A DNA stretch of 64,000 nt, taken from contig OX344749.2 of the NCBI GenBank assembly GCA_947034885.2, positions 8,571,501-8,635,500 on the forward strand, read 5' to 3'. Below are positions 16,913 through 44,893 of the stretch, piece by piece. Source of the DNA: Thuidium tamariscinum (lineage: Eukaryota > Streptophyta > Bryopsida > Hypnales > Thuidiaceae). A program made the position numbers and the translations under genes. The notes under the pieces are model-generated. The model ran no database searches. It worked only from the letters and a program-made list of their open reading frames with translations, and was not told where the DNA came from. The first letter of the stretch is position 1. Every line of letters starts with the position of its first letter.

Positions 16913-16916
16913 AAAG

Positions 16917-17743
16917 CCCAAGGGGTTAGGACAAAACACAAATGTGTTATAAAATATAAGTGTTACAACTTTTTTGAAGTTAGTTACGAAGAAGATAATG
17001 TAAAGCACAAAAAGTAGAAAGTATCCATACGGTCAAAGTAAAAAATATATTTTTAGATTATTTTTAAATGAATTTTGAAGATATAACTTCAAAAATTCAC
17101 CAAAAATACAATTTTTATTTTTAGGATTTGAAATTTTTTTTGATTGGTCAAAATTGTGTTTTTTATTGATTTATAAAAAAATGCAAAATATTCAACCTCT
17201 AAAAGCCCAAGGGATTAAGACAAAATACAAATGTGTTATAAAATATAAGCTTTACAACTTTTTTGAAGTTAGCATCAAAGAAGATATTGTAAAGCACAAA
17301 AAGTAGAAAGTATACATATGATCAAAATTAAAAAAATATTTATAGATTCTCTTCAAATGAATTTTGAAGATATAACTTCAAAAATTCACCAAAAATACAA
17401 TTTCTATTTTTAGGATTTGAAATTCTTTTTGATTGGTCAAAATTGTGGGTTTTATTGATTTGTTAAAAAATAAAAAGTATTTACTAATGAGAGCATCAGT
17501 ACTTCCCCCAAATAGTAAGTTTTCCAACACTAAGCAATTTTAGACACTTTGCACTATTTCTCCTTTTTTTTTCTATAACTTTTGTTTGACCGTACTGATC
17601 TTAGTTTTGAATATCAATGTTGAAAGAAAACCCAATTTTTTCAAAACTGAAAAAAAAAAATTTGAAAAAAGTTTTTTTTTTGCCCGAAAATTCTCCCCAA
17701 AGTCAGGTAGCGACCAGAAAATGGTCGTTTGAGCGCTTAGGGG
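16917..17743. mobile_element. TTAA-flanked, piggyBac-like non-autonomous element, 827 bp
   Basis: TTAA at 16913-16916 precedes CCCCTAAAAGCCC, and the right end GCGCTTAGGGG at 17743 is followed by TTAA. The terminal match is short (CCCCTAA), so the pairing rests on orientation, TTAA on both sides and a length similar to the family's other members. The left part holds an internal tandem duplication of about 295 bp, with AAAGCCCAAGG repeated near 16923 and 17205. No transposase frame is seen. Confidence 0.65.
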
Positions 17744-18850
17744 TTAAGAGCAATTGGATTCCCTTTCCTTGGAAATCTAGTTATTGTGGTAAAAAAATTT
17801 GGTTGGTACAAATTGTTTTGAATGTTTGAGAGTCATTTGAAGTTCAAAATCCAAACACTTTTGGATCACAATGAACTTGTTTTTTCTTCATGTAGTATTC
17901 ATTTGCAATAATGTTGTTGGGAAAGTTGTGCATACTAGTCTAGTTTGTGTGATTAAAATTTCATATTAATCCAAGAAATTATAAGTGATTGAGAAGCATT
18001 TTAGTGAAAGGAGGTTTAGAATTAGGGCTTTTTTTGCAACTTTTCTTGCTATTTTGGCATTTCAATGCCATTTTGCAAACACAATTAGTCAATTGCATGA
18101 TATTTTCTTTGACTAATGTGTTTTAATGTTTGTTTGAAAGCACATTATAGTTAAAGAAAAATTTAGTTGAATAGGTTTAGAAACCAAATTTTACTTGGAA
18201 TTGTGTTGAAGGTAAATTTCAACATCCTTTTTCAACTCTAAAACATTCTAATCTTGTAATCTATGAGACCAAATGAGTCCAAATTTGATTTACAACATTT
18301 ACAATATATACACTACAAAATTATATGGTTGAAATTTCAATACTTTAGTAAAATTTAGACCTATAGCACTTCAAAAGCTATGATGTTTTTAATACCCAAA
18401 AGGCCTTAGGCATTTAGGGTTTAACCATGTATGAGGGATAAAATACCACACATACACTACAATGAATGATTGAGATTTAAGGGTTGCATAGTGTAGTTAT
18501 TTTGACTACTTGACCATTATAGAGTTGTTTTATCCCTCTCAAAGATTATGATGTAAATGCATGGTTGTGAATTTATCCTTAGGAATCAAAATGGATAAGG
18601 ATAAAAAAAATACTTCAAATGTTTCTTGCAATTATACTAGTGACACCATATTCATTAATTTCGGAGATGAAGGACCTCCCAATATAATATTATCCATTTG
18701 CAAGCTCAAAAAATCATGTGTAGTTGTATTTAATTTAGGTTAAATGAACCTTATTTCATTAGATAGAAACTGTAATTTCCATTAAAATGAGAGTTCAAGT
18801 AGAGGAAATAGAGCGACCTTGATTATAATTGTATGCATTAGAAGAAATCT
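17744..18850. other. AT-rich spacer without a recognised gene
   Basis: No supported coding region. TTAGGCATTTAGGG at 18406-18419 matches the right terminus of the TTAA family, but its left partner was not found. Confidence 0.5.
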
Positions 18851-19120
18851 GAGGGCATTATAAGGCCATTTCGAGTCTGTTCCCAAAATGGCTCCCAATG
18901 CCGCTAGCCGCTGTCAAGCCGAATTTAATCAAAAATAAAATAAAATAAAATAAAATAAAATAAAATAAATTTGGGTCCTGAAATATGAAAATAAGTCCAA
19001 ATAAAAAATAAAAAATAAAAAATTTATTACATGGTAAGGTCGCGACCACGTAGGACTCGAGTTCACAGGGCAAAAACTTCATTCTTGTAGTCCGGGAACC
19101 CACAGTCTCCTAATGCCCTC
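18851..19120. mobile_element. 270-bp element with GAGGGCATTA termini and an AAAAT microsatellite
   Basis: The left end GAGGGCATTA and right end TAATGCCCTC form a perfect 10-bp inverted repeat. The centre carries about seven AAAAT units near 18933-18968 and a second A-rich run near 18998-19020. A degenerate relative lies at 15368-15648, so this is a mobile or formerly mobile family. No clear target duplication was found. Confidence 0.65.
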
Positions 19121-19635
19121 AAATATCATATAGAGTGTATGTCTCTTCAAAAAATAAAGGTATTTCATGCAAACTTGTACCCAATGGATGTTGTTGTGTA
19201 CCTATTTGTATGCCAATGTTTTTATTAATTCATCACCCTATTAGGTTATAGTATATTGCAAGAAGTGGTACAAAAGAGTAATAGTTGTGTGATTGGAGGT
19301 CCAGGTTCGACTCCCATTGACCTCCATCTTACTAAGCCGTAGGCACTATCTTGATACTGAGCTAGACTGAGGTTGTCATTTAGAATTCACAAACAATTTT
19401 TTGTAATTCATTGCATCTTAAGTGAATGTGCTAAGGCATGATAATGGTATCCTACAAATTATAATTGAGAGTAACTCTAATACAGAGGACTTGTATAGCT
19501 TACAAACAAAAAGTGGTTATTTCACTAACCTTTTGAGTAAAATTTCACATTTTTTGGTAATTCAAAAACTATGCTTTGGAACCTTTTTTAACAACACAAA
19601 GCACACTTATCATCATTATTTAAAAATCAATAAAC
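19121..19635. other. AT-rich spacer with a tRNA B-box-like motif
   Basis: GGTTCGACTCCC near 19304 resembles the internal B-box of RNA polymerase III promoters. I could not fold a full tRNA cloverleaf around it or find a convincing A-box, so it may be a SINE relic or chance. Nothing else is recognised. Confidence 0.35.
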
Positions 19636-20368
19636 GGGTGAATGCAAGAAACACTTGTACTATTTGTTGCGTTTTACTACAATACTCATGACTTTTTTTG
19701 GAGTACTTTAAAATTAGAAAATTAATTTGAAAAAAATTTGAAAAATATGAACAATGTATAGACCTCTAAGATGAAGGTTTTCACCAAAGGAAATTGATAG
19801 AAAAATTCTCTAAGTAGGAGAATTTAAAAAGTGCCAAACCTCAAGAAAATACATACCTTCATATTTTAATTCGGTAAAAATATCAAAAATAAGTAAATAC
19901 AAAAAATAAAAAGTTTCCATGTGCAACAACTCTATGGAGATGGTCATTGACCAAAAAAACCACCAAAATAATATTTTATATGTTTCAAAATTCAAGCAGA
20001 AAGAAGCTCACTTTGTAGACTTCCACACCACATAAAAATAACTTTTTTCAAAATCCCTCACTTGGAGTGATGCAAAACTACTAGAAGACCATCTCATTCA
20101 AATTTCATCTCAAAATCATTAAAAAAAGGTACTCCTTAGTACTAAAAACTTCCAAATTGGCATTTGTGACATTTAATCACTAGTACTATTTTAGTATTAA
20201 ATTATTTTTGAAAATTATGAAAAAATTACGTAAGGTGTATGATAGTCATGAGTACCTTCTCTAGAAATCTTGAATCATTTCGAGAAAAAATGCAAAAGTT
20301 ATGGCCAAAAAACAGATCAGCACTTAGGTAGTGATGGGAAATAGTACAAGTGTTTCTTGCATTTACCC
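19636..20368. mobile_element. Terminal-inverted-repeat element of the GCAAGAAACACTT family (copy 2), 733 bp
   Basis: The left end begins GGGTGAATGCAAGAAACACT and the right end is its inverted partner with one mismatch over about 29 bases. AAAC borders both sides, a possible 4-bp target duplication. The interior is AT-rich with no transposase. Superfamily is uncertain. Confidence 0.75.
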
Positions 20369-20959
20369 AAACATAATACCTTAAGCATCCAAAAACATTT
20401 GTTTAGTATTGAAATACAAAGGCTATAAAAGAAAACTTATTGAAAATCCAAACTTGATATCAATGGAATGCAAAGCGTTTTTTTAGAAATGGTAGAATAT
20501 CCAAAGAAATTATATTATTTTGTAAGAACATGATATTACAACCACACAAACTTTAGCCTAGACCTTTGTTTACTAAAACATCATTGAACAAAGGCTCATA
20601 TACCATCCTAAGTTTTTCATTGAAAGATTTCCATCCAATTCATAAACAAAAATGCTAGACTGAAACTCAATCCATTTGAAATGCAATTTCCTAGATATTC
20701 AAAAATCAAAATGTTCTTAGTCTATTGAGTTTAGGGTAAAAACTAGTCACAAAAAAATTGAAACCAACCTACGGAATTTGACTATGAAAAGAATTTAGAT
20801 GACGTTATATATCCTCATGAAGAATTTGACTACAAAAAGAATTCATTATCCCACAAAATTGGCATATAGAACTTTAAGAATGAACAGAGCCAACCCGAAT
20901 TATTTTGATTAAGTACGAATCCACGAAAATTATAAAGAAAACAAAAATCTGTTAAAGTA
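20369..20959. other. AT-rich spacer without a recognised gene
   Basis: Stop-rich AT sequence leading into the tandem array. I see no coding region or inverted repeat in it. Confidence 0.5.
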
Positions 20960-22115
20960 TTAGTTGGAAATATTCATATCGAAGTAGGAAAAAAACTGTC
21001 AGATTAGGGGCTCATGGCAAGTCAACAATTGTATAAATGAAGAGACGGAGAGAAGTTGGATGGAAAAAACTCAACACAACCATGATCTCCTATTAAAAAA
21101 ACCATACTCAAAGAATGAAGGACCAAAAATAGAACTTTTGATTTAAGTCGACTCAACCGAAATGGCACTCTCGTCTCAAAAAACAAGTGTATAGAAACTA
21201 CTATATAGGTTGACACAACCTAAAATGCATCTCCTAACTGAATGAAGAAATGACCATCTTAATTCTTGAACTATTCTAAAAAACCTGTCAGACAAATACT
21301 AAAACTCCAATCGTTGACTAATGAGCAAAGCTCTGTGCTGGACATGAAAATTTATAAAAAGAATATGCAAAAGTCACAAAAAAAATTTCTTCAAAATACT
21401 TGAAAATTTAGATAGAGAAGTCGGCCAGAATAAACTCAATATAATCATTTTCTCCTATTTAAACAAACTACACTCAGATACCAAAGAAAATTTTCAAAGA
21501 ATGAAGGACAAAAAGAAAAACTTCCAATTTAGGTCGACTCAACCTAAATGGCACCACTGTCTAAATGAACATTTTTGCAAAAACTACTATAAATGTCAAC
21601 CAAACCTATATTGCATTTACAAACTGAATGAAGTAATGAGCATCACAATTCCCAAATACATTCTTGAAAACCTATCAAACAAATAATAATACTCCAATTG
21701 TTGACTATTAAGAAAAATTCTTAGAAGTAAATGAGAACTTCTAAAATAAAAATGCAAAAGTCACAAAAATATTTTTTATTGACAAAACATATAAAAATGC
21801 AAAGAGAGAAGTCGGACACAATAAACTCGACATGACATTTTAATCTATTTCAAAAAAACTACGATCAAATACAAAAGAAGAAATGTCAAAGAATGAAAGA
21901 CAAAAAACAGAACTTTCAATTTAGCTCAACTCAACCTAAATTGCATCCTCGTATGAATTAACAAGTGTGCAAAAACTACTATTTAGGTCAACTCAATCTA
22001 AATTGCAATTTCTAATTGAATGGAGGCATGCGCATCACAATATCCAAATACAATCTTGTCAAAAAAATAATAATTCTCCAACTGTTGAATAATAAGCAAA
22101 GTTTTGTGCACTACA
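20960..22115. repeat. Tandem array of ~388-bp units, three copies
   Basis: The marker TCAAAGAATGAA recurs at about 21108, 21494 and 21886, spacing 386 and 392 bases. Each unit also holds an AACTCAACCTAAAT-like motif and a CTCCAA(C/T)(T/C)GTTGA motif. Copies have diverged by many substitutions. The small open frames across it are not conserved between units. Confidence 0.85.
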
Positions 22116-22319
22116 TGAAAATCTATACTTGTTCTAGATGTCAACTTCCAATTCAACTGCACAGTCTAAAAAATGAAATATGGAATACTGCCATTTTAAT
22201 AAATTTGCCATTTATTGTTTCTTTTTCTTTGAAGATAGTTGATTTCTATCCTGCAAAGCAAGAAAAAAGTATACATAACTTCACAATCCCAGAGCTGCAT
22301 AGAACAAGATGGAGGTAAA

Positions 22320-22735
22320 TAATGATAGTGCCAAAAGCAAAGAGATTCCGCTTCGGGTTACTTACTTGAACCTGCACATAATCTAGCGTAGTGCAAGGCA
22401 AAACAAATATTTTTGGGAGGTGCATTCACTGAAATGATTGGGATCACACAAATTTTGGTAATTTTATCTCTTGAATTGAAATTACTATGAATTTTGAAAG
22501 GCAAAAGTTGGTCTTGACCCATGACCAACATTTAGAGTCATCCAATTCTGATCATTCAAGAACTACTTTACGGCTCATTGCTTTCTACTTTATTACTCAC
22601 TTATGTGCCATTAACTCATTGGTCCAAACCTTGAAAAAGTACAAAGACATACATTTCAAAGAGAATATGAAAATCCATTCCAATTTGGTTGGAGATAGGG
22701 TAGCCTATTGATTGTTGATGGGCGCTACCATACAC
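22320..22735. mobile_element. Degenerate relative of the 400-bp element at 29936
   Basis: The interior from about 22374 to 22700 aligns by eye with 29977-30300, sharing the TAGTGCAA-like start, TTTTGGTAATTTTATC and GAATTGAAATTACTATGAA. The outer ends only weakly match the 29936 termini, so the boundaries are approximate. The 74-codon frame inside is not preserved in the other copy. Confidence 0.6.
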
Positions 22736-22751
22736 CCTTGTTCCTAGCACA

Positions 22752-23018
22752 CCAAGTTGTTGATGATGTTGCAACACTGCAGTCAACACACATTATTTTA
22801 TAATATAAGACAGGCTCATATTATTTATATTTTGAGCACCCCAAGTTGTTGATGATGTTGCAACACTGCAGTCAACACACATTATTTTATAATATAAGAC
22901 AGGCTCATATTATTTATATTTTGACCACCCCAAGTTGTTGATGATGTTGCAACACTGCAGTCAACACACATTATTTTATAATATAAGACATGCTCATATT
23001 ATTTATATTTTGAGCACC
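22752..23018. repeat. Nearly perfect 3 x 89-bp tandem array
   Basis: Units start with CCAAGTTGTTGATGATG at 22752, 22841 and 22930. The three differ at only about two positions, so the array arose recently or is kept uniform. Each unit contains GTTGCAACACTGCAGTCAAC and an AT-only stretch. Confidence 0.95.
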
Positions 23019-24980
23019 CTGGCACAAGGGTATCTGCAGCAGTATAGTGTACTTACCCGAGTCCTTGACAGTAGATAAGGAATTTAGTACCAACACTGTA
23101 GTATTAAGATTGCATAAAATATTGCTCATAATCATCTAGCTTACAAGCGGGAGGATCCAAATGTGTGGATATGTTTTTGTTTTAGAACAAATGGAAAACC
23201 ACAGCATGAAAACGAACCGAAAAAACACAGAAAGACAGGGTGGAAATGTGTAAAAATGTTTGAGCACTGGGCATACGCCCGCAAATCCACAGTCCCACCT
23301 GGCACTCCGCACTCCATGTAGCACAAGACCGGGGGCACTTGGCTGTGAGTACAACTCATATCACGCAATGGAAGTTGACAATCATTTCAGTACTCCGCAT
23401 GTGAAGAAGAGATTTCATGGACGAAAGCCACAAATCCCCCCCAAATTCAGCAAACTTTCAATCTGGAAGGACGCTGAGGACAGAAAGTGTCCGATGGAGG
23501 ACGGACTCTAACATGCGGCTGCACCTGCCCACATACCCAATAAACAATTGACTGCTCAAAAGATTGGCGGGCTCTGTCCATGTGTTTCAAGAAAAAAAAC
23601 ACGATTGGCGGGCAGTGGACTTCAGGAACGCGAGCAATTTTGAGCCGAAGGAAAACAACGGACGAGCCTTGTTTTGTTATTGTTTTTTTAAGGAATGGGG
23701 AACCCCACGTACTGCATTGAGTGAGAACCAAATACAAGACGGCCAAGCCAGAGGCTGGACACTAAAGAGAGAAAGAGCACTTGAACAGAAAGAAAACCGG
23801 CCAACCAAACTGAGTTACAATAATAATTCTGACATTTAGCTGCGACTTGAGCAATTTTTCCGTTCCTGCGCGCCTCAAACAAGGCTCCGCAGCTTGTGGT
23901 CGCCACCTCCTCACCCAATATAACCTACCCAAACGGTCCATCCCGGCGAAATGGAACGGCCATCTATCTCCAACATTCTCCCCTGACTGGAAGGACGTGT
24001 GGTGAAAGGCGGGGTTTCAGAAACAGGCAGCATTCATGTGGTCAGGATGGCACAATGCGGTGACGGTCCATTCATGGCACCGCCAAAATCAATTGAGAGA
24101 TAGATACCAGGTGCAACTGCTGCTGACTAGGTGTTGAAGAAAATCCCATTCATTGTTTTTTTCATTGCCCACAAGCCGCTCAGGTGTGGGATTATGCACA
24201 GTCAATTCTGCATCATCTTCATGGAGAGCAATCAATCTTGGACACTCATATCTGCTTCAATTCTACACTGTGTATCTTTGGTGCACCCCTGGCACGTCGA
24301 TTTCATGATCTCCGAACGATCTGGTCACGACGGCCCTCTCTGTGGATGATATGGATTGCCAGATCCGAGGGTGGGCAAGCTAAACCAAAATGAGCTACAA
24401 TTTTTTTGTTTTTTGTTTTTACGTAATTAGACTGAAGAAGGCACCTTCACAGCAGGAAGAGAAAGGCACAAGACCAAGGGGGGAGCCTGAAGTCAGGTGA
24501 AATTACCCGACTTGGGGCGAGCAAATGTCCACTCCATCTTTCTGTGGGAATTGCAGAGTTTTGAGCGCTTGTATGTTACGCTGGGGCGCTTTTTGAAATC
24601 CATCATTTAAATGATTGTGACCACATGTACACAACCATGCCAACAGACAGAAGTCACAAAACTCGAGCCCAAGTGAGATGCTTCGCCACGAGCCAGCTAA
24701 AAGAATGTTATTGATTGGAATAATATACACGAAAATCAACCATCGGTTATCTAATTAAGTCTCAGCCTGGAAGCCCAATTGCGAGGCAAATTCCAGTTAT
24801 TTACGAGCAAAAATCAGTCAGGCCCGTGCCAGCGCTAGCTGAATGTACAAGCTCGTCAAATTCTAATGGCAGCGCAACTTTACTTTGGTACAGTACACGA
24901 ACTCCAGCACCATGATACATTGAATAAGGCCAAAGTCGAACAATGAAGATGTGATGAAATTAACGCCCGGAGGGGTATGT
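23019..24980. other. Mixed-composition region downstream of the oxidase gene
   Basis: Composition is close to balanced from about 23130 on, as expected near a gene. Open frames of 70-100 codons occur on both strands but overlap each other and show no family features. The part nearest 24980 should contain the 3' untranslated region of the oxidase. I cannot assign its polyadenylation site. Confidence 0.45.
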
Positions 24981-26997
24981 CTAGTTGTTTTGCTTCACCC
25001 ACTTGCCCTTGGAAGGAATGCCATTCTGCACCACATAGAGAATGTAATACGCCGGCGGCGCAATGTTGTTGCTGGGTGCGGCTGTCACCTGGATAGACCA
25101 CCCCGCGCCGACCTTCACGGGCACTGTGGTTTTCAACTGCAGAGATCGTTGTCCCTGCGCAAACGAGTGCGTGGTGAACGGCGCACTGTTCTGGTACACG
25201 GTCACACCTCCCACTCGCGTTGCCACATTGAACGTTACCGTGAACTCCTGATTGTATTTCAACGCCCCGGGGACGCCGGTTATCGCTGGCCTAACGGCAT
25301 TGTTGCTGCAATCCACAAACCTCAATACGTCAGTGCGTGAACAGGGACACCTCAAAATCACACATGTACGTCAGAGCAAGAATTTGGTGCAGGGAACTGA
25401 AATCTCGGAGCACGCCCTTGGCACTTGTGAAAGTGACGATTTTGAAACTCTGGCGACAGCACTCCATTTCGATGAATGGTTAGGATCGTGTCTACAGAAT
25501 TCACAGTTGGCGATGCCCCCCGACCCCCCAATTAGCTATCCCGAGGTGATTCTTACTATCCTATTGTTCAACATGTTGGTGAATGTCACGGTTTCGGAAC
25601 TCTACAGCATGCTTTTTCAATGAATAGGACCATATCCACAACATCCACAAGTAGAGAGAGGTCCAAAAAACAAATTACTCCAGAGACGGATGAGCATAGA
25701 TCCCGAGGTGATGGATATATCCCTACCCTGCGGCCAAGTATGGAGGCGAAAAGGCTTCGACGCGAAGTTCCGTAGGGAATGCGCCCGTGTAGGTGTAGAA
25801 CTGGTGCGTGTTGCTTCCAGCAACCAGAATTCTGCCATCCGTCAACGGGCTGGCCGTGGAGTGATACATCCTCGCAATGCCCGTCTTCGCTAACGTCGTG
25901 AATCGTCTCCCCGCAGCGGCATTGGGATTGTAACTGACGGGGTTAAAAACTGGCGCGCTCGCCTTCCCCCAGCCGTTGAATCCCTTCCCAGCGCCATTAA
26001 TAATTATCACCTCCCCGTTCGGAAGGTTCAGCATGTCACCCATCGTGCGCGCAAACGGCATGTCCTCCAAAGCCCATCCCGCAGTCGCCGCAGAGGCTAC
26101 AATCCTGCCACAGTTGTTGGCAGCCGCCGCGCCTACATTGTTCGTTCGTGAGGCCCCCGGCGCCGATCCTCCGCAAACCAGAATCTCCGCTTTCGCAAAT
26201 CCGGAGGCGAACGAGAGGGGTAGCAGGACTGCGGATCCGGCGGAGGGGTAGTTCCGGGGAAAGGTTCCGAGCTTGGGATAGTTTCGGACGACTTTCCCAG
26301 TGTTCCAGTTCAACTGCAAGGAGTCTGTGTTCGCGAACACGAACAAGTCGCCGTTGGGAAGCAAGAACACAAACGGATAGAGGTTGTCCGACCCGCCCAG
26401 GATGCCCAGATTGAAGGAACCTTCACCAGCCTTCCGTTTGGGGTAAAACTCATACGACGCGGTGCCACGACCGCCCATGATAATCTGCCGAATCCCACTC
26501 TGTAACAGCTGATTGGAGGAGTACCAGCGCCCCACGTTCAGATTCTCCCCGAGCTCCACCCAGTCGCAGGTGCCGCCCGCGGCACAGGGCGACAGAGTTC
26601 GTATCTTCTTATTACCCTCGAAGTCGCCGCCGGTTTGCACCAGCCTGCCGTTATCGAAGAACTGCCCCGAAGAGCACCAAGTGTCTGTGAAGATGTACAA
26701 GGGACGGACTGCGCCGTTCGCGGGGTTCAGCATCACGGAATGCGCGTAGCAGTCTGTCTTGGAGATACGCTCCAAAGGCTGGTTGCGGCAGCGGCCGTCG
26801 GGGAGCTTGATTTGGGTCGGACCCGTGTTGGTGCGGTCCAGGAGGATGACCGTGTCGAAGTGCGTCACCGCGGCGTGCATGGTCGCGATGCCGGCGTTCT
26901 GCTGAATCACCTGCCATGTGCCTTGGGCTGAGACAGGTAACAGAGCTATCCAGCTCTGTATCAGAACCAGCACAGTCACTACAATCGCCACACCCAT
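24981..26997 (-). CDS. Secreted glyoxal/galactose oxidase-type copper radical oxidase
   Basis: Two exons on the - strand, 26997-25727 and 25305-24981, joined by a 421-nt phase-2 GT-AG intron, encode 531 residues, the normal family length. Residues 1-24 form a signal peptide, so export is expected. Residues about 25-420 correspond to the glyoxal-oxidase N-terminal beta-propeller and about 428-529 to the DUF1929 C-terminal domain. The copper-radical residues all appear present: C108 (TWCSSGQ) and Y159 (GRWYSS) for the thioether cofactor, Y378-H379 (MYHSTA) and H470 (FTTHSF). Family members oxidise aldehydes or primary alcohols to produce hydrogen peroxide; the substrate cannot be read from sequence. 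Plant relatives act in the cell wall, for example in pollen and tapetum. The splice model is supported because it restores the SPPYL to RPAITG continuity of the family. Without splicing, the frame stops at 25723. Confidence 0.93.
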
Positions 26998-27209
26998 TTT
27001 TTATCTCGTCACCAGCTCTCAGAGAGAGCTAAAGAGTTTGATGCAGTCCAAATGAAAAATGCACCAAGATCAGTACACTCAGAGTCACGAGTGTTTGACG
27101 ACAGGTCGTCACCCTCGTGAAGTTGGAGTGTGAGATTGGACTGCCTTGCTTCTGAGAACTGTAGAGTGGAGCTAGAGAGGAGTGTCAGTGATCTCAGCCC
27201 ACTTGGAGC

Positions 27210-27215: not shown

Positions 27216-29933
27216 CGTGCTGGCGATGGACTTTCGGATTCGCTCGTAAGCTCAGACACTTACTCGTCGTCGGGTTCATCACCGGACTTGAACAATCAGT
27301 GGTTCCGCGTGGTTGACTTTTTAGTTTCGACCGATCCGGGAACGGCGGTTGAAGAGAAGGTACGGAGTGCGTCACGGAATCAGGAATCTAATCCACCGGG
27401 TCTGCCAGTTGGAATTTAGTAGGTGGTGGATTGTTTTTAGTAAGCATTTATATGCTATCTTTCACTAGTGGCAGCGTTTGCATGAAAATCATGCATCGGC
27501 TAAATCGTTTACCGTTGCTGCAGACGAAATTAAGATTTATGGTTTCATAGTAGTCTTATTAATTTGCTGAAACCCAAACCCAATTCAGGAGCATATGTGT
27601 CTAAGGACACTCAGCCTTCGGTTCTGTCCGGTTTATTCATTGCGAAGAATATATGGGAGCAGGTGGCAAGGCAAAGCAACTCCAAAGCCCAAGCCTGACT
27701 TATATCCAATCCAATCCATGTCCAGGCTTACAGCAAGCTGAAGTGTACCTGAAGCAACGTCGGAGTAGAAGCAATGTCTAATTAGGGCTCTACTCACACT
27801 TGTGCTTTGAACAGTCGCCGTGTTTTTCGCGGAAACTAAAGATCAGTTCGATGCTGTTTTCTATTCTTGTATTTTATTTGAATTTTTGCTGGTTTTCATC
27901 AATTAAGATGAAGGAAAAAGAGAACAAAACAAGCCGAAGCAACCCTTGTCGCAGACGTGGATGGTAGGCAGCTTGGTTGTAAGGGTGAGAGACTGGGAGC
28001 CAGCCAGCTTCCATGGCTACGGGAGCTAGCATCGCCAGAATAAAAGAATTGGTGGGTGCATCATCAAGTCTCAGTAAAGGACCGAATTACTGAAAAGATC
28101 GAGAGTGCTCCTAAGTATCTGAGTTATAATTGCTAGAGTAAGAGTTATCCAGCTTGTTGTGGCAGGCCATTCCCGCGTAATTTGTACTACGATCTCCATG
28201 GCAATTTTCGGAAACATTGAAGGTCTGTTTCAGTTCGATGCCCTTGCAATTGCACCGCATTGCAAGTTTGTAACACATTACCCAGCAGGTTAGATCATGA
28301 ACAATCTTCTGCGTCAGTTTGTTCATCAAGAACCAGTCGCGCAGGGAATACGTACGATGGATCTGAAATCCCAGTATCCAATGTCCAAGCCAAGCAGTGC
28401 CGCGTCAGATGAATCTGCCTTGCCTGGGATGCTGAATGCAGACAGTTTGCACCTTTGCAACTTGAATCATAAAACTTGGTGGTGCACCAGCTGGAAGTTG
28501 GAAATTTGGAATGTTCCTTATTTTTTCCTCAAATACGGAGAGGGTACAGCCGTACGAGGATCCGCCCTCCCGGGACGCACTTAATAGAGCACCATCAAAT
28601 TTAGCTAATCTAGCAAACCCACTTTATACCCGCGCAGAAAAATTTAGCACCCAATGTACACTCACTTGTTACGGTGTTGTCCTCACTTGTTACGGCGTTG
28701 ACGTCGCCTTTGACGCCGTTTGACCTTGCCATCGGCCGAAACTCATCACTGTAACTTCTGATAAGTTCTGACTGTCATCCAGCGAAGCTTTGTCTAATTC
28801 TGAAAAGCGCTCCCGCAGAAATCTCCGGCAGCCCTGAACCTCAAGCACGCCATCTGCAGTTTTTGTCTTGCACGCCACCTTCAGTTTTTTTGTCATCGAT
28901 CTTTGCAATCAGTGCATGCCAAATCAATCATTGTCCAAGTCAGTAGCGGAGGGGTCATTCTTCTTTCGTATCAGAAATTAGACTGATCCAGCAATATCGT
29001 ATAGTCGGAACTTTGGAATCGCCAAACACTAGTCTCGCGTAATGTAGACGGCCCATTGGTTTGCAATGCAAGCAACGCTCAACGATTGGTCAACGGCGCT
29101 GTTGACCACCCTCGAATCCTCGAACCGAAGCAACCAGTGGTCAACGGCGGTGCTCTGGTTTCTCTGTGAGCCTCATCAGTTGTAATTGGAGTTGCATATC
29201 AGACAATTAGCAGATCATACAGGAGTAGCTGATAAATCAAAACATCTATTGAGTAATAGTCATTATCTCCAACATTATCCCCTGATAGTTTTTTCCTCCA
29301 ACACTATCCCCCGAATGCCAAAAGATCTTGGATTTTGACTTTGATTTTTTTAAATCTACATATTATAACAATTTCTTCTGAATTGTAAGGTCCATAGAAT
29401 CTTAAATTAGATGTGTTATGGATCACATGGGAAAAGAAAACACAGTAATGTTCAATACGGATTCAAAGATTATAATGTTTGTTCGCAATTGGGTTTAAAA
29501 TTTGGAAATTGTTTGATGTCTTTCAATCTCTTGTTTATATGTCAAGCCTAAAATTGAAGTTCTGTGAAAACTAGGACAAAATATATGCTATCATTTATGA
29601 AAAAATTCCTCCACCCAAGTGACCCAACCCCAAAAAATTTAGCACCAAAATATGGTGCCTTTAGGGGTCAACATAGAGCTCTCTAGTTTACAGTTACCTG
29701 AACAACTTACCTGGGTGCGGTTGGTGGAGGAAACCGAATCAATTGGCAATCACTTTGCTTTTTTTTCCCTGACACAACTGACACGAGATATATCGAATGC
29801 CGAGTAAAGGAAATGCACAGGCTGTCCAGTCGCAGAGTGCGGGGTTCAGTTCCTTTTGTTATCAATGGGATTTATAATTATCACAGGTATTATTACAACC
29901 AGGGCTTGTTTTTTCATATTTGAAGAAGTGCCA
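27216..29933. other. Upstream region of the oxidase gene, no second gene recognised
   Basis: Composition is mixed up to about 29330 and AT-rich after that. CACTTGTTACGG(T/C)GTTG is repeated twice near 28668-28700. CTCCAACA(T/C)TATCCCC occurs at about 29269 and 29293, with a similar CTCCAACATTCTCCCC at 23969. Several frames of 70-95 codons (such as 28297-28584) have no recognisable domains. A GCACC/GGTGC hairpin lies at 29642-29662. Confidence 0.4.
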
Positions 29934-32474: not shown

Positions 32475-33326
32475 CCCCTTAAGGACCAACATGCTTTTTT
32501 TGGCAACATAGCAATTTTGGGCAAGTACATGTGACTAGAGATTTTCATGTTTTAGAACCAAAATTTAATAGGAGGTGTGGATGAGGAGTATCTTTAAAGC
32601 CCAACAATTTTGGTGACTTTTGACTACATGGTTGAAAAGTTATTGCACAATATGTTGTTTGTTTCCCAACTGAGGCAGTTCAGGTAGATCTGAAAAAATC
32701 ACTTTTTTTGGAAACCAAAATTTGAAATTTGTTTTATAGATTAATATATACGTGGGAAGGTTTGAATCATTCCATTTGGATTAATGAGTCAAAAGGTATG
32801 AAGAATTTTAGTTTGCAGGTAGTTATGGATTCTCTACTCCAAAATAAACTTTGAAGTCCTTTATTTTACTCAATTTTCAATATTTTAAAAATAATAATAA
32901 AAACATTGGGTGTAGATTGTTTATTAAAACATTTGAACCATTGGGATTAACATTTTTCAATTCAATAAATAAATTGTTAACAATTTGGTATTTTTCAAGC
33001 ATGTAGCCAACTTCAATTGAAGAATGAATCCAAAGAGTAACAACCATTTTGAACATTTTTTCATACAAAATTGGCCTTTTGAAGTGCAGCTGCCCGGATT
33101 TTTGCAGTGTTAAAAAAAGGATTTTTGTAACTTCAAACAGTGATATCTTGCAATCTACATAGTAAAACTTTCTAAATTTCTTCCTACATCTTTTCAAACT
33201 ATTTCACTAAAAGATTCTACGTTTACAATATTCCAAAAATGTTCTTTTACTAAATTTTGGTAGTTGTCCTAGAAATGACAATTTTGGAACAATTTTGGTG
33301 AAAACATAGTCAAAAACCTTTAGGGG
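32475..33326. mobile_element. TTAA-flanked, piggyBac-like non-autonomous element, 852 bp
   Basis: TTAA at 32471-32474 precedes CCCCTTAAGG, and CCTTTAGGGG at the right end is followed by TTAA at 33327-33330. The left half resembles the arms of the palindrome at 34560-35300, sharing GGCCCAACAATTTTTGT-like and GAGTCAAAAG blocks. There is no transposase frame, so movement would have required an enzyme from elsewhere. Confidence 0.8.
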
Positions 33327-34378: not shown

Positions 34379-35566
34379 GGGTCCAAATGAGGTATTAGGA
34401 GCCAATTTTACCATAACCACTCCTTTTTAGGGACCATTATTGATTGTAAAACTCAAATTTTAATAGATTTGTCCTAAAAAGTCATGCCTTATGAATCATA
34501 GATGTTATAGTGTCATGTTTGAACACTTTATAGTTTATGATGTCATCTTGTTGTGTTAACCCCTAAATGCCTAAGCTGCATTTTTTGGCATTATAATTTT
34601 TTGGGGCAGCTCACTACGAATGGAGTTTTTATTTTTTTTCTTTGAAATTTTCACACAACATGTGTCCAAAGAGTAGCTTCAAGGCCCAACAATTTTTGTA
34701 ACTTTTGACTTTGTGGTTAAGAAGTTATGGCATGATATGTCATTTTGTTTGAAGTGAGGGCAGCCCGGGCAGCTGAAAAAACTTCTTTAAAAAAACTTTT
34801 TTTTCAAAAGTGAAATTTCAAATTGATTCTTTAGGTTTTTACAGACATGGAAAGCTTTGTTTCATCCCATTTGAATTAAGGAGTCAAAAGTTATGAGGAA
34901 TTTTAGTTTGCAGATAGGTATGGAGTTTTCAAATTCCATACCTACCCGCAAACTAAAATTCCTCATAACTTTTGACTCCTTAATTCAAATGGGATGAAAC
35001 AAAGCTTCCCATGTCTGTAAAAACCTAAAGAATCAATTTGAAATTTCACTTTTGAAAAAAAAGTTTTTTTAAAGAAGTTTTTTCAGCTGCCCGGGCTGCC
35101 CTCACTTCAAACAAAATGACATATCATGCCATAACTTCTTAACCACAAAGTCAAAAGTTACAAAAATTGTTGGGCCTTGAAGCTACTCTTTGGACACATG
35201 TTGTGTGAAAATTTCAAAGAAAAAAACAAACAAACTCCATTTGCAGTGAGTTGCTCAAAAAAATTATAATGCCAAAAAACGCAGCTTAGGCATTTAGGGG
35301 TTAATTAAGCACAAAAATGCACATATAACCAATCCTTTTTAGTCCTTTGTTGAATTTTAAAGTAGAAGATATAGGAACTTTTCAATTGAAATGAATGATA
35401 TTTTGTATAGAGTTGGTCATTATTGACAACCTTGAATAAATTTTTGAACTAATTTTGATGAAAATGATGATGTTTTTGAATAAACCATTTCATCAAATTT
35501 TCAAAAGGACCTCCAAAAAGACCTAAGGAATTGGCGCAAGTGGCTCCTAATACCTCATTTGGACCC
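34379..35566. mobile_element. 1188-bp element with perfect 26-bp inverted termini, host of a nested palindrome
   Basis: 34379-34404 is the exact reverse complement of 35541-35566 (starting GGGTCCAAATGAGG). The palindromic element at 34560-35300 lies inside it, so this outer element should be the older insertion or carrier. No clear target duplication was seen outside the termini, so the true ends may lie slightly elsewhere. Confidence 0.75.
34560..35300. mobile_element. TTAA-flanked 741-bp near-perfect palindrome (foldback, piggyBac-like)
   Basis: TTAA lies at 34556-34559 and 35301-35304. The left end CCCCTAAATGCCTAAGCTGC is matched exactly in inverted form at the right end. The two arms of about 365 bases are nearly identical to a centre near 34930. 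The arms match the left half of the 852-bp element at 32475, so this looks like an inverted duplication of half an element that still moved as a unit. Confidence 0.9.
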
Positions 35567-36636: not shown

Positions 36637-37438
36637 CCCCTAAATGCCCAAGCCTTTTCAAGTGTGTTTTGACTATGAATAAAGTGCATGGACTTGTAGT
36701 CATCCCTAGTGAAGAAAATTGATTTTTTTTCAAAATCTAACCGCACAGATGTTTAAAGAGCTTGTTTATTAGTAAGTACACAAATTTTGAGTACAAAATT
36801 GCATTGGAGTTGAGAGATTATAACGAGAGAATAGTACATTTTCTATATTTAGTATGTTGCCTTTTCCCACAATGTTTCTCAAATTTGCATATAAATTTTT
36901 GGGGGGATTTGAGGTGACATGAACAACTACAAAAAGTGTTAGCACACTAAAATGCACTTCTAAAAAACTTAATTTCACATGAAAAGCTATTAAATTCATT
37001 ACACAATCCACCTTGCAATTGTTGAAATGCAATTATTTTTATAAGTAGAAATTGAAAAAAACTCCAAATCAATAGTTATATGTTTAAATTTTCAATGGTG
37101 AATATCATGAAAACACTTTCCTCTTTCCATTGGGACCATTTTCAAAGCAAATGGATATGTACAATTTTTTAGATCTCAAATTAAGTGAAATCGCATAAAG
37201 CTAGGAAACGAAGTAAAATTGGCAAGCTTTACACTTCACTTTTAGTACATGTAGGCCTTTGAAGACCTCTCAATAATCAAATCTGTACTTTTTCCAGTGA
37301 AAAATGAAAGTTTTCAATAGTTAACCCTTAAAACTGCCCGAAATTTTTTTTAAAACGGGCACAGGAATTTAACTGCCCATTCAGAAATGAGCCTGAAATT
37401 TCAGATCGACCATATATGGTCGATGGGGCAGTTAGGGG
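36637..37438. mobile_element. TTAA-flanked, piggyBac-like element, 802 bp
   Basis: TTAA at 36633-36636 precedes CCCCTAAATGCCC, and GGGCAGTTAGGGG at the right is followed by TTAA at 37439-37442 (12 of 13 terminal bases match). An alternative reading is a 114-bp miniature element at 37325-37438, since TTAACCCTTAAAACTGCCC at 37321 also pairs with the same right end. Both could be true if one is nested in the other. Confidence 0.65.
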
Positions 37439-37442
37439 TTAA

Positions 37443-38331
37443 CCATGAAATTATATTCCCTTGTCTTGAGGGCAATCCAAGGAAAAATAAAAAAATCTTG
37501 CTTGCCTTTGAAGTGTTGTATATATTTTGTTGCTTGTCCAAAATTTATTTGGCCAAGGCATAAAAAAGTAAATAGTGCTATAACTTTGCACCCTAAATGC
37601 ATTGTTTGGCATTCCAATATGTATTAATTGTAGAAATAGGTTTAGAATGTCAAAGCATTCCCAAATAATGTTAAATTTTTTTTGATAACTTTTCTCTTTT
37701 AAAATCAAGCCCCATTGGCTTGGCTCGTAGTTTAAAGGTTAAATCACTAATATTTAATCCAACAATAAATGTCTCTCAACATGCATAAAATATTGGCCGT
37801 TAGCAAATGCTTGCATCTAAATGACCTTACATATCCTTCATTTTTTTACTTAAATTTTTCTATTAATATAATTTGTCATATAAGAAGTACTAATTTCCAT
37901 CAATAAATTTGAGTATCTTCCTTCAAAATACAGCTTTTGGTGCAAGTACAACATCAACCCTATTTTTACAATATTGTTCATTGATAATGATACACTTGCA
38001 TTCCAAATGAGTTTCTTTACTATGATTTTGGAAACGTAGTTAGAGTGAAAATCAATAATACAATGGTTATTGTATTTGAACCCTAGTAGAAGGGCTAAAA
38101 TAGATAAAAACATTGAATAGAAAAAAGATGATTGAATGAATGAAATTTTAGTTGATTCATAACATTGTTAACCAAAGATGGGGGGCCCTTTTGCTTCTCT
38201 AGCCTTCTATTGTTGAAACTTCTCAAATTATTGTACAATCAAGTACCTCAATTACTCACAATCTTTCATTTTCTAACAAGGCCAACCAAAAGCAACCTTG
38301 AAACAACCAATACCAAAAGTGACAATATAAC
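37443..38331. other. AT-rich spacer without a recognised gene
   Basis: Frames of 60-87 codons on both strands lack domains and overlap. No supported feature. Confidence 0.5.
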
Positions 38332-38334
38332 TAA

Positions 38335-39435: not shown

Positions 39436-39438
39436 TAA

Positions 39439-40554
39439 ATCTCTTCCTAGGCATCTAGAGAGGGATTATATCTCTTCCAAGTAGGAAGTCAAGTAGGAAA
39501 GTAAACAATGTTATATTCCAAAATGAGATTCTAGTGTAAATTTAACATTTGAATAGTAGATGTTTCCATGAGCTAATTTTTTTCCACCTAAAAAAAGGCT
39601 TGCTCCTCCATTATACGGATGAAGATGCATGGCAAAGTGGGAATGAGTCCAAGGGAAGGGATTTGTCATTTGGGGCTGGTTTCCATCAGCGGGATCCAAT
39701 GCAATGCGACACTCCTTGAAACGAATTGGAAAAAATTGAATTCTGCCTACTTGCTTTAACAATTTTCAATGTCAAGCTTGAACTAGGACTACCAACTAAA
39801 ACTACCGTACAAGTAGGTCACTTTCAGAAATAACTAGAGAAAATTCAAAATTTTAAAAATTGTAGAACTACTTTTTGAAAATCTGAAAATTTTCATTGTT
39901 GTCAATTTTGAATACCCAATAATTATTCTTGAGAAAATTTAGAAAAAGTAACACATTTACACATGAATAGAAAGTTAACTCAGAATTGGAAGTATTAAGA
40001 AACTAGGGAAAACAAAGTACCAAAATCCAAGAAAAGGAAAGCAAGTGTTGAACCGTTGAAATTCCAAAATTAATTATTTTGGCAACAAGCTACCAAATTT
40101 GTCTTGCGTGTACAATATTGGTATTCTACATGCTGAAGAAGAAAGTGGATAATCCATCTAGCTAAATTGCATAGTAAGTGCCTAAAGCAACCATTTGATT
40201 ACAAATTTCAATTTTGGAAGTATTAGATCTCTTGAAATAATGTCCAATAAAATTTTCTTGAAAGATAAATGGAAGTTGCATTTGTTGAAAGTTGTATTAC
40301 AATTTTCAATATACTTGAGGAATGACTTGAGGAATCCATGAATAATGTTGTATTTTCTTTTTCCATGTCATCTCTAATAAGTCTGGTTGGAATTTGTATT
40401 CTTACAGTTCCAAAAAATTAACAAAATTGATCACAATGTTGGGTATTTGAGTTTTTGTTCAATTTAGAATAAACTCCAAGAAGTTAAAAAAAAGGCCTTT
40501 TGCATTTTGGAGTTAAAAATCATTGTTTAAAAAAAATTAGTAGGCCTTGAAGGC
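39439..40554. other. AT-rich spacer without a recognised gene
   Basis: The 83-codon frame at 39511-39762 (-) has no recognisable family features. No other structure found. Confidence 0.45.
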
Positions 40555-40558
40555 TTAA

Positions 40559-41634
40559 CCCTAGACCGCCCAAACTCCAACCAAGCATGAAGGTGATGCT
40601 CCATGACACGACTAGTTGAAATGAAATTCCAGGTGCAATCTGGAGGGATTCCAGGCACAATTGTTTGTATCAATGAGTAATATATTTTGCGCTGCAAACA
40701 TCGGTGGTTCCTCGGAAATCAAATTGAACATTTGCATGAGGAAATCATTCAAAATTGGGGTCTTTACTTCATAGAAACAATATTTTTGGAGGGTGACAAT
40801 CAGATTTTGATCGATTACAGAAGAAGAGTACCAACTTGACTATGAAACAACCCACTGATTACAAGAAAGGAGGAGAAGCCACTCAGTGGCCAAAAATTGT
40901 GAAGGGAGATTTCAAACCGCGATCACAACAAGAATTGCAAGATAGGACCTTGTGTGAGAGAAAACCAAACGAACCAAAAGCTACTTGTGCATCCAATGGG
41001 GTATAGCCAATCGACGTTCATGATGACATTGATCCCCACAGCAAATTGCTTTGAACTCGATCTACAATTTGAAAGTGAAGTCCCTGTGGATTCGTGAATT
41101 ACAAAGCCATACCATTATAGAAGAGAGTTTTACAATTCCAATTTCAAGGAGGGTGATATGAAGATGCGGAGGAGATCAAAGTGCATGTTCAAAATGAAAG
41201 AGGCTCTAAAACCTCAAGACATCTCTAATTCCTCTCCAAAAAACAAAATTCCTCATAATCCGAGGCCATGCAATCGCCAACGACGTTGCCTTCAAAAACA
41301 AAATTAGTAGAGGAGCCGTGAATCCTGAAAGAAGGAAGCTGTCTCTGCTTCAAATGTTGGAATCCAAGGCCAACGACATTCTATCGGCTTCTCCCGGTTA
41401 CTTTCTTGACAATCGCTACCAATGGACATGTCCCGTGTTTTACCTCCGCAAATTTGGACCTCTCTATTTGATGATTGCAGGCCCAAATTGCTCCAGTGAA
41501 AGCGCCATCACCTCCGTAATTTGGTCATTACCAAAAATTTCAATTCACACCCTCATAGTGGGAATCCTTGTGTTTCGTTTGAAGCTCTTCAAAATTCGCA
41601 ACGGTCGTTTTTTGTCCCCTTGGGCGATCTAGGC
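40559..41634. mobile_element. TTAA-flanked, piggyBac-like element, 1076 bp
   Basis: TTAA at 40555-40558 precedes CCCTAGACCGCCCAA, and the inverted right end differs at two of 15 bases and is followed by TTAA at 41635-41638. The interior from about 40580 to 41330 is less AT-rich than the surroundings. A 104-codon frame at 41318-41632 reads to the right end but matches no transposase I know, so it could be captured sequence or chance. Confidence 0.75.
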
Positions 41635-41638
41635 TTAA

Positions 41639-42890
41639 GTTACTTTCATTCTTCTAATATCTAATTGAATTTTCCAACTCAACCAAAGCTTGTAGAAAAT
41701 TCATCTCAATTGAGTACCATTTTGACTACAAGAACAAAAAAATGTGCTTTTTAAAATCATCCAAAAATCTCAATTGAACCATATGTGCAAAGAGGGCCTA
41801 GATTCAGAGCCAAGATTGTATTATTACTATGTACTATTTCTTTACAATGCATTGAAGCAATGTCTTTTTTGTGGCATGGAAGCATCTACATTCTTGAGAG
41901 GGGTTAAGTGCTTTAGAGCACTCAAAACATTTTCCTTGTCTCTAATACTAGGGTCTCAAGCAGGGGCCATTCAAACCAAAACTAAATGGTAAGATTTATC
42001 CTATATTTCATTTGGTAATTAGTCAATCAACTATTTATGAGATACATTTGTTGAGCAAGGGTGGAAAACCAAAGATTTGATGTCTTTTATAAAATAGAAA
42101 TGATTATTTTTTACTAATTAATTAATTTTTAATACAAATGAAGGATATTCATTACAAAAGAAATACAAATAAGGAGTGCATACATCCAAAATTGCACCTT
42201 GTCCAAAACCACCATCATTACTATGGATACATTTCAAAAATAAACATGCACATAAGTTGAATATATGATTTTCAAACATCTATAAAGAAAAATTTGACCC
42301 TTTGTAACTTTAGCAAACAACATCTACATTACCAAAAAAATTGGGTTGTTGGAAGGCTACTTCATATTAAGATGTTTAGCTATTTCCTAACTTGTTATCA
42401 AAAAGAGAGACTTCTTTTGGCAACCACTTCATCTAACTTTTGTGATTGATTCCAAGGTCGCTAACCAAACTTTGTTGCCACATGGATTTTGTTAGTATTT
42501 TGGGCAAAGATAAGGGAATAGTACATTATCTATGAGAATTTAAATTGATGAAAGGGGTCCCCTTCAAATTTGTTTGTGTAACTTCCTAAAGGCCCAAATT
42601 TTTTGTAGTCAATGTTGCATTATTTTGTGTATTGAAACCTCCTTTCATTTGCCAACAAGAAAATATGAAAATTTGACTAGTCAAATCATATTAATTGTGC
42701 ATGAGAAAAAAAAAGTGGCACTTCTGAATATCCCTACCTGAGATGTATAGCACTCTACATACAATTTGAACGTTTCTAATAATAAAAAAATTCTATTTAT
42801 TACAAATGAAACGGGACTTCATTACAGAGATCAATTTGAGCGTTTTAAGTTTTGTGAGCAAGAGTGTAATTCTCTTTCAAGAATTAAATG
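41639..42890. other. AT-rich spacer with two LINE-like 3' tails
   Basis: On the - strand, TGTAATGAA followed by CATTTGTATTAAAA (about 42170 to 42124) and TGTAATGAA followed by TTTCATTTGTAATAAA (about 42830 to 42782) resemble 3' ends of non-LTR retrotransposons. No reverse-transcriptase remnant is attached. The frame at 41744-41992 lacks domains. Confidence 0.45.
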
Positions 42891-42894
42891 TTAA

Positions 42895-43530
42895 CCCCTA
42901 AATGCCCAAAGCCTATTATGAGCTTCTTGGAATTTTCTCTAAATTGAACAAAAATCCAACATTTTGATAAGTTGAATCAATTTTTTTTGAATTGTAACCA
43001 TACAAATTCAAAGTAGACATGTTAGAGATGGCATAGGAAAAGAAAACACAACAGCGTCGCTTATGGAATGAAAGATTATAATGTTTGATCATGAAGGTGT
43101 AAAAATTGTGAAAATCTTTGAGCTCTCTTCTTGCAAGTCAAATCTAAAAAGTTGGTCACCAAAAAATATGAGGTTGAAGGGCCTAACAAGCATAACCCCA
43201 ATCAATTTATGGCTTCTCAAAATCTACTCTACAATTTTTTTAAATGAATTTTTAGTGTGATTTTTTCTCTAAGAGCTAGTGTATTAGAGGCTCATTTCCA
43301 AGAGTCCTTAACACTAAGGAATGTCAAGATTGCAATGGATACCCTTGTACTAAATCTTGAAAAGAAAAATCACAATCATTCATTTTCAAAATCGGATTAT
43401 TGATGCTGAAACTAGACTTCAAAAAGAATCTTCAAAAAATATAAACTACTAAAAATAGAAATTTGATAAGGTTTTATTTAACTTCAAAGTTTCTTCGACA
43501 CGACATTTGGGTGCCTTGGGCATTTAGGGG
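42895..43530. mobile_element. TTAA-flanked, piggyBac-like element, 636 bp
   Basis: TTAA at 42891-42894 precedes CCCCTAAATGCCCAA. The right end TTGGGCATTTAGGGG is its exact inverted partner over 15 bases and is followed by TAAA, a one-base decay of TTAA. The interior is AT-rich and non-coding. Confidence 0.82.
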
Positions 43531-44893
43531 TAAAAAAAAAAGGTCACCGGAGTCTCTGCTGCGAGCCTTTGAGCTTGCGTCAGTAAGGTAGGAGGTTCTA
43601 AAATAGAGCGGGCATTAAGAATGGAACCTATAAAAGGCATTGAAATGGACAATATGTGGTTCTTAAATGGACCTTCACATTCATTGAATAAATCAAGGAA
43701 AGATGCATTGGGAATAGTGAGAGCCAATCATTCTCCTTGCTTTTCCATCTTTTCTTTGAAGTTGCAAGTGAACCATTCATGGAGGATCTAGGGACATAAA
43801 TAGGGACCTACAACACATTTTGTTTGAAAATTCATAACTAATTCAAAAATGCTCCAAAAAATATGAAATCACTTGTGTTAGATTCCTCATCTATTTTTCT
43901 TCCTCTGAAAAATGGGCTAGAAATATTTCCGTTTGTTTAATTACATGAAAAAGGCAGATCAGCCCTTAGATGCTCCATTTCTGAGCCTTCTACCTTAGTG
44001 TGTCAGACAGGTTTTTGTCTCTCCGGTTGTCTCTCTTTCGCTTGAGGTAACAGCTCCGCGTGCACGCTTTCTTCATGTCGATGGTGCTCGTTCTGGGCAC
44101 TAACTTCGCTGTCCAGTCTGTGAATGAGGAACATGTGCTTATTATCGATATCCATCCCACTCCACCGCAAACTTGGAGGCTCCCAGTCAGCTTGGACTGT
44201 TTGTCGACGTTTGCATATATTATCTCCAACAGAACAGTACTCAGCGTTGGGTGTCAGACCTAAGTGCAAGTACATCCATACTTCAGCTCTGGGTTTCTTT
44301 TTAGTTTTTCTTTTAATACAAATGAAATAGAATTTCATTCTTCAGCTCCGTCTGGCTTTCAATACGATCTAAACACGTTACTCTTCTCCTTGCTATGAAA
44401 TTCCGTTTCATTTGTGTCAAAAAATAAACAAGTTAGACACACGTTACTTTTCTTTCGGCTTGCAGCCAGGCCTGAGGCTCTGAGCTCAGCTCGTTTACGT
44501 CAGGCGCACGGACACAAGTTCTGGTAGGGCTGGCCACCACCTTCCAACAGCTCAGCAGCTCTCTCGGCTGGCCGCGGACAGCGGGGGTGGGTTGAAGGAA
44601 TTTGAAGCTTCTTTCATCGGTGGGTGAATGGGTGGGTACGTACACTGGCAATGCAAGCGGATGAAAGCGTGTGAGAATTTCAAGAGCGGCGCGGTAGTAG
44701 TTCAACGCTGCACGTACGAACGCGCATTGCGTTCGGGCGGGCTGCATGCTGCGGCTCGCTGAGCACCCACAAATTCTCGAATGGAACAAATGCAGGGATG
44801 GTACCCACGGCAGCCATTCTGACAGTGCATGGCTGAAACGGAGTCTGCTCTGAATTCTATTTGAAACTCTGACCAGCATTAATTTTCACTCTG
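43531..44893. other. Balanced-composition island without a recognised gene
   Basis: From about 43980 composition is balanced and longer frames appear, the largest being 44433-44879 on the - strand (148 codons). Its translation is Ser/Arg/Pro-rich and fits no family I recognise. Two short AATGAAAT...CATTTGT tails, one on each strand (44295-44342 and 44392-44428), resemble the LINE-like ends at 42 kb. The region may be decayed retroelement or captured gene sequence. Confidence 0.35.

Follow-up and report, generated by a model that had tools for sequence, protein, structure and literature searches.

TTAA-bordered miniature elements of the piggyBac type in the nuclear genome of the moss Thuidium tamariscinum, and full-length piggyBac elements that share their ends

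The piggyBac element is a cut-and-paste transposon that is best known from animals and fungi. The ends of moth piggyBac are of the CCC type, as are those of the plant elements described here; the host of piggyBat is a bat. In this work, we have analysed a stretch of 64,000 nucleotides from the moss Thuidium tamariscinum (GenBank assembly GCA_947034885.2, contig OX344749.2, here C1, positions 8571501-8635500), which we refer to as “the window”, together with the 363-Mb assembly of 19 contigs to which it belongs. A PsaD protein translated from this assembly resembles plant PsaD in the PDB, where its best match, after one repeat protein, is 8htu, which is from the moss Physcomitrium; this agrees with a moss as the host. 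The window contains a set of TTAA-bordered elements that are almost certainly non-autonomous, miniature members of the piggyBac superfamily (miniature inverted-repeat transposable elements, MITEs) in a land-plant nuclear genome, presumably moved by the transposase of full-length elements.

According to the relevant part of PMC7351741, a dimer of the cysteine-rich domain of the moth transposase binds a palindromic repeat that spans bp 17-33 in the left end. The plant elements share with piggyBac of the moth Trichoplusia ni, as far as it is described there (PMC7351741), and with piggyBat the TTAA target, a transposase with three catalytic aspartates (DDD) and a C-terminal cysteine-rich domain; they are further like moth piggyBac in that one of the ends has a palindrome at bp 17-33. 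In plants, a review groups MITEs by their ends and target and, in the passage concerned, includes PiggyBac among the angiosperm MITE superfamilies (PMC10004981), a survey gives PiggyBac among the superfamilies that are present in all groups studied (PMC4438587), and a table of the Ceratopteris draft genome holds 1230 PiggyBac entries (PMC6890710). The initial annotation of the window, which called such elements rarely documented in land plants, was therefore fair as to their rarity, but, judging by these passages, they are not undocumented. The elements of the window resemble the angiosperm MITEs and the Ceratopteris entries in being piggyBac-type elements in plants; they also resemble the MITEs of coral (PMC2872659) and of the ciliate Blepharisma (PMC9942856), i.e. 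of other hosts, which we likewise take to be miniature piggyBac derivatives.

Six elements of the window have ends of the form CCC(C)T...AGGG(G) with TTAA outside, and in five of them both TTAAs are intact; short terminal inverted repeats that start with CCC are a hallmark of the piggyBac superfamily. Elements 1 and 2 are classed as non-autonomous piggyBac elements, and elements 3, 4 and 5 as non-autonomous piggyBac-like elements. Element 1 (16907-17743, minus strand, its right end being the transposon 5' end) holds, within its left part, a tandem duplication of 289 bp; the borders of all five elements are as first described, but the start of element 1 had been placed at 16917, i.e. 10 bases too far right. 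Element 2 (32475-33326) and element 3 (34560-35300) are 70% identical over ~375 bp. Element 3 matches its own reverse complement at 96% identity and is thus an almost perfect palindrome (foldback) of 741 bp, a transcript of which would form a long hairpin and could be a source of small RNA. The left end of element 4 (36637-37438) is exactly TTAACCCCTAAATGCCCAA, while element 5 (40559-41634) has the ends CCCTAGACCGCCCAA and GCCTAGATCGCCCAA, the right one reading GCCTAG, in line with the single base change reported before. In element 6 (42895-43530), a member of a family of ~636 bp, the left TTAA is intact and the right one is mutated to TAAA, again as had been noted. Element 7 (45693-46544) is decayed, as had been said: its CCC ends, CCCTTAAAGGTC and CCCTAAAGGTCT, are recognisable, and no TTAA is located directly outside at these coordinates. 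On its right side, TTAATCCCTAA is found at 46539-46549 on the minus strand with one mismatch, and a TTAA follows one base further out; the right end may thus be at 46545, with one base changed and the TTAA beyond it. Allowing up to 3 mismatches, TTAACCCCTAAATGCCCAA is matched 12 times in the window, compared with 0.06 times on average, and never more than once, in 100 dinucleotide shuffles.

The same end, which is that of the 636-bp family of element 6, is abundant across the genome: the exact 19-mer TTAACCCCTAAATGCCCAA occurs 1326 times (679+647) in the assembly, with 0 and 0 matches of the reversed control, and the 15-mer that remains without the TTAA occurs 1712 times (877+835; control 0 and 1). 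TTAA directly precedes 77% of the exact 15-bp ends (1326/1712), where base composition alone would, by our own estimate, put it before ~1%. For the comparison of whole copies, 15 genomic elements, taken from 100 listed places of the 19-mer and from loci of the same search, were set beside element 6. Whole copies of the 636-bp family are 73-94% identical in pairs, and element 6 is, from end to end, 79-92% identical to the copies L004, L005, L009a, L011-L015 and L017, with unrelated flanks. For 12 members of the element 6 family, namely element 6 itself and 11 genomic copies (L003, L009b, L016i and L018 excluded), identity across the 66 pairs averages 97% in the 16 bp just inside each end and 27% (range 15-47%), i.e. 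chance level, in the 60 bp outside the TTAA; the copies therefore lose their homology at the TTAA. Local alignments within the family end for most pairs at the element end or within 7 bases of it, and a minority stop short at insertions or deletions. Neither homology running through the TTAA as a rule nor an autonomous copy with another transposase family, the two outcomes that the initial annotation had thought contrary to its proposal, has been found. Among the 16 elements compared, L003 is not a 636-bp copy, L010 is without ~70 bp beside one end, and two longer forms, L009b (1382 bp) and L018 (1374 bp), have in common an extra interior (59% identity).

An empty site with a single TTAA, as had been proposed to look for, has been observed for one nested copy: at L016, a 922-bp MITE is nested inside a MITE of the 636-bp family, and the removal of the nested MITE together with one TTAA restores the sequence that is carried by relatives. 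Six relatives were compared at this insertion point: TTAA is found in L015 and L009a, TCAA in L011, L013 and the window copy, and TTCA in L012. This empty site agrees with TTAA being the target and being duplicated when the element inserts. A duplicated TTAA target, characteristic of the piggyBac superfamily, is thus found in the window, at the ends across the genome, at one empty site and in all 11 copies of the full-length family PBa described below. In addition, adjoining elements that share one TTAA, end to end, are seen at L035 (216/221), where a PBa copy and a neighbouring MITE end share it, L032 (180/185) and L005 (2132/2137), i.e. the border TTAA of a transposon is reused as a target.

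Transposases of the piggyBac type are plentiful in the assembly. The genome search with PF13843 (DDE_Tnp_1_7) yielded 116 scored matches among 659 candidates (E 1e-70 to 6e-80), with 116/116 above the curated cut-off. One 636-residue frame (P0001) resembles the solved piggyBat (E 8e-32) and the transposase of 6x67/6x68 (E 3e-25), which we take to be that of moth piggyBac. In the alignment of seven elements (PBa, PBb, PBc, PBe, PBf, PBg and PBh), whose transposase lineages are 33-67% identical to each other, all three catalytic aspartates are present in six, and the C-terminal Cys/His motif, i.e. the cysteine-rich zinc domain that characterises piggyBac, is also present in six (PBa, PBb, PBc, PBe, PBf and PBh); the longest frame of PBg stops before the second aspartate, hence before this motif. 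A cruder search with fixed patterns found the three aspartates in 12 of 20 loci, the misses being due partly to broken frames (e.g. L025, PBg) and partly to motif variants (PBe and PBf types). In phages, the transposase found no match.

Upstream of the transposase frame, divergent piggyBac families have a conserved block of ~100 residues (open reading frame 1, ORF1; 25-69% identity), which is seen in L042 and L037 (PBa), L044 and L026 (PBc), L058 and L028 (PBe), L062 and L025 (PBg), L064 (PBh), L048 and L050-L055, and is not found in PBf. The PBa, PBe and PBg versions have no credible Pfam match; ORF1 could either form a 5' exon of the transposase or encode an accessory protein of its own. As for PBb, TTAACCCTAATACG was considered as its 5' end and dropped, with the homology of two PBb copies continuing through that point: the copies L023/L046 and L030/L047 (C1, C6) are 99.7% identical over 4908 bases, past the presumed 5' end, which points either to an element of greater length than supposed or to a duplication of the block.

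The link between these full-length elements and the MITEs is provided by their ends. A 26-mer of the element 1 right end, in which one position was left free, has 88 matches in the genome (0 and 0 for the control), and at least 5 of the 88 sites have the same orientation as a stop-free PF13843 match and lie 3.2-3.4 kb upstream of it (C2:10678402, C3:41251911, C5:9656010, C6:10580732 and C8:23459816); the five were picked by eye against the 116 matches, one of them differs at the free position, and by our own estimate ~0.05 such pairs would be expected by chance. Three of the five were compared with element 1: L065 and L066, both full-length piggyBac elements, hold open frames of 875 and 885 residues, and their 5' ends agree with the element 1 right end in 35/35 terminal bp, while L064 (PBh) is 86% identical to it over 44 bp; the similarity of the full-length elements to element 1 fades past ~47-97 bp. 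The second link is formed by PBf, a full-length element of 5135 bp (C7:1354931-1360065) with TTAA on both sides and a transposase frame of 774 residues inside. Its start, CCCCTAAATGCCCAA (in longer form CCCCTAAATGCCCAAA), is the 15-bp end of the large MITE family. Between the ends of PBf and L016i, the nested MITE, there are matches of 139 bp at the 5' side and 301 bp at the 3' side, each reaching the MITE terminus exactly; the reversed control gave 0 matches. The stretch 33105-33286 of element 2 also resembles the 3' region of PBf (63%, E 5e-9). DDE_Tnp_1_7 transposases with the DDD residues thus occur in full-length elements with the ends of element 1 and with ends of the 19-mer type: the transposase flanked by the same termini, which the initial annotation had suggested searching for, exists for two types of ends, and the piggyBac identity of the enzyme is supported.

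One full-length family, PBa, has transposed very recently. It has 11 copies, each of exactly 5088 bp, with TTAA on both sides in 11/11; a 31-mer of its 3' end and a 41-mer of its 5' end occur 11 times each, and each pair spans 5096 bases, i.e. the element and two TTAAs. In 9 of the 11 copies, compared over 3984 positions, only 2 columns are variable, and the identity ends at the TTAA; the flanks differ, and so the copies are not duplicated pieces of the assembly.

The subterminal palindrome that is typical of the piggyBac superfamily has also been searched for. In element 1, the palindrome CGACCAgaaaaTGGTCG (17711-17727) occupies bp 17-33 from the right end, the position given for the moth piggyBac left end in the passage cited above (PMC7351741), and is the predicted binding site of the cysteine-rich domain of the transposase; the same palindrome occurs in L065 and L066. 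In element 4, ATCGACCATATATGGTCGAT (37405-37424) is located at bp 15-34 from the right end and has an 8-bp stem (shuffle p 0.003). Elements 1 and 4 both have the stem CGACCA..TGGTCG at bp 25, and the stems vary by family: GTCCCC..GGGGAC in PBf, AAGGCA..TGCCTT in PBg and CGCCA..TGGCG in PBa. Single ends vary, and it is the 5' ends of six families taken together that show the palindrome, as a joint dyad centred at bp 25 (24 of 42 possible pairs, with a shuffle p of 0.0004 at this centre and of 0.0006 when any centre between 20 and 35.5 is allowed). Among single ends, 4 of the 7 assembled 5' ends have p <0.1, all four centred at bp 24-25. We read the bp-25 dyad as a putative conserved docking site of the transposase.

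On these grounds, we propose that the MITEs retain both transposon ends, with a CCC-type terminal repeat to which some add the palindrome of bp 17-33, and that their coding interior has been lost or replaced; a piggyBac transposase from full-length elements elsewhere would bind these ends, excise the MITEs and insert them at TTAA, which the insertion would duplicate. We infer that the transposase would mobilise these MITEs in trans and that the excision would be seamless, and some of them may still move.

Several observations weigh against this proposal or parts of it. No transposase is detectable in the window, as had been stated before: the seven transposases had no tblastn match at E 0.01 in the window or the MITE loci, and with PBa, PBb and PBc at E <=1 a single match of 16 residues (E 0.18, L013) appeared, which is taken as chance. 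The analysis linked none of elements 3, 4, 5 and 7 to a parent, save element 3 by way of its likeness to element 2, and for element 5 it identified no genomic relative either; the ends of PBa, PBb and PBc had no DNA match to the window or the MITE loci, where PBb had matches of an interior repeat only. Among the copies compared, PBf resembles the 636-bp family only in the terminal 15 bp and in one stretch of 132 bp (L014, 65%), and it is therefore read as a relative of the parent of this family, not as the parent. Some copy alignments overrun the right end by 11-50 bases or the left end by up to 41, which we read as chance extension in AT-rich flanks. At the empty site, 4 of the 6 relatives have no intact TTAA and, because TTAA is its own reverse complement, the anatomy of the site alone cannot tell whether the target is TTAA or a TA within it. 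As regards the palindrome, the centre at bp 25 was chosen after the single-end test and the moth paper, so the p-value for any centre is the fairer one; PBb, one of the six families of the dyad, has an unproven 5' end and scores 1/7; only 8 of 28 ends have p <0.1 in the single-end stem test, among the window ends only 4 of 14, with 2 centred near bp 25, and 12 of the 14 window ends are without such a palindrome near bp 25.

Of the other explanations, the one that survives best is compatible with the identification as piggyBac: the MITEs may be true piggyBac MITEs that are long dead, i.e. old relics without a living transposase for their own ends. The pairwise differences of 6-27% between the 636-bp copies and the partly mutated TTAAs and ends of the window agree with it, while the open frames of 875 and 885 residues in full-length elements with the exact end of element 1, and the very recent movement of another piggyBac family (PBa), speak against it, although they do not themselves demonstrate the movement of MITEs; we regard it as quite possible, a little short of an even balance. 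A further reading is that of a living native piggyBac system, in which six or more divergent families have transposases that look complete, one of these families has moved very recently, the miniature passengers have more than 1000 exact ends between them, and ORF1 would be a lineage-specific partner or an N-terminal part of the transposase; here, we find the arguments for and against to be evenly balanced.

The superfamilies Kolobok and Sola3 also have TTAA as their target, and our genome searches covered the transposase of piggyBac and not theirs; an origin of the MITEs from one of these is nevertheless very improbable, considering that element 1 shares 35/35 terminal bases with piggyBac elements and that PBf starts with the MITE end. 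Stowaway-like MITEs of Tc1/mariner, with a TA target and the ends ACCCC...GGGGT, would leave filled and empty sites identical to those of L016 if the TA is located within TTAA, but they would need a T and an A around the TA at 1326/1712 ends, and the ends are common to piggyBac elements, with same-ended copies bearing a piggyBac transposase for two end types; this explanation is rejected as hardly credible. Equally rejected, as extremely improbable, are Tourist-like MITEs of PIF/Harbinger: such MITEs are known in plants and their 3-bp target, TTA or TAA according to the part of PMC10004981 that lists targets, is contained in TTAA, but the flanks here have TTAA on both sides instead of a 3-bp repeat and the same-ended full-length elements, as recovered by the PF13843 search, bear a piggyBac transposase.

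Beyond the elements first listed, further decayed copies or ends of these probable piggyBac MITEs are found at ~9.65-10.56 kb, 29.37-29.67 kb and 40.35-40.51 kb of the window, in addition to a lone right end near 18.42 kb. The first (9655-10558, left boundary approximate) has a GGGG/TTAA border at its right end; its stretch 10289-10550 resembles the 3' region of PBf (61%, E 4e-11) and 9655-9718 matches the PBf 5' region weakly (E 0.005). The second (29369-29667) belongs to the element 6 family and is both partial and decayed (73% identity between 29369-29521 and 42978-43126), with the right end TTTAGGGG followed by TCAA. The third (40346-40512) is a truncated copy of the same family (74% identity), its end flanked by the TTAA at 40513-40516; a homology between 42867-43053 and 40539-40346 that runs through the TTAA into the flank was considered and set aside, its flank part being an AT-rich extension of ~24 bases that is treated as chance. 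Besides these elements, the window contains a large inverted repeat (49380-50604), which has arms of 473 nt at 96% identity around a spacer of 279 nt and overlaps 177-bp tandem units; three 89-bp tandem units (22746-23019; identity 97-98%); a gene like glyoxal/galactose oxidase on the minus strand (24981-27000), in two frames (Glyoxal_oxid_N, GO-like_E_set); and a match to Transpos_assoc (62372-62776), presumably a domain of CACTA-type elements, that is weak and under the curated cut-off. The Rfam scan of the window gave nothing.

The elements of the window, then, belong to a known kind of which they are new members, and what makes them noteworthy is the host, the link between master and passenger elements, and the recent burst. 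Unlike moth piggyBac and piggyBat, the assembled elements live in a plant and form several diverged lineages, are 4.9-6.3 kb long with terminal repeats of the type CCCCTAAnnGCCC, and have, in several families, the additional conserved ORF1 upstream. Unlike the angiosperm and Ceratopteris entries (PMC10004981, PMC6890710), from which they are set apart by the descriptions given in the relevant parts of those sources and not by sequences, they are assigned through full-length elements with a transposase, through shared ends and through very recent full-length copies. In the parts of the open-licence literature that were consulted, we found no description of a piggyBac that is native to a moss or another land plant and recently active there, a weak negative, since liverworts and hornworts were not searched. 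If a native plant piggyBac with near-identical, intact-looking copies is confirmed, it would offer a plant-adapted transposase, and masters and passengers in one genome would offer a natural system in which both can be studied together. The presence of several lineages (33-67% identity) side by side in one genome also makes it testable whether plant piggyBac goes back to old inheritance or to horizontal transfer.

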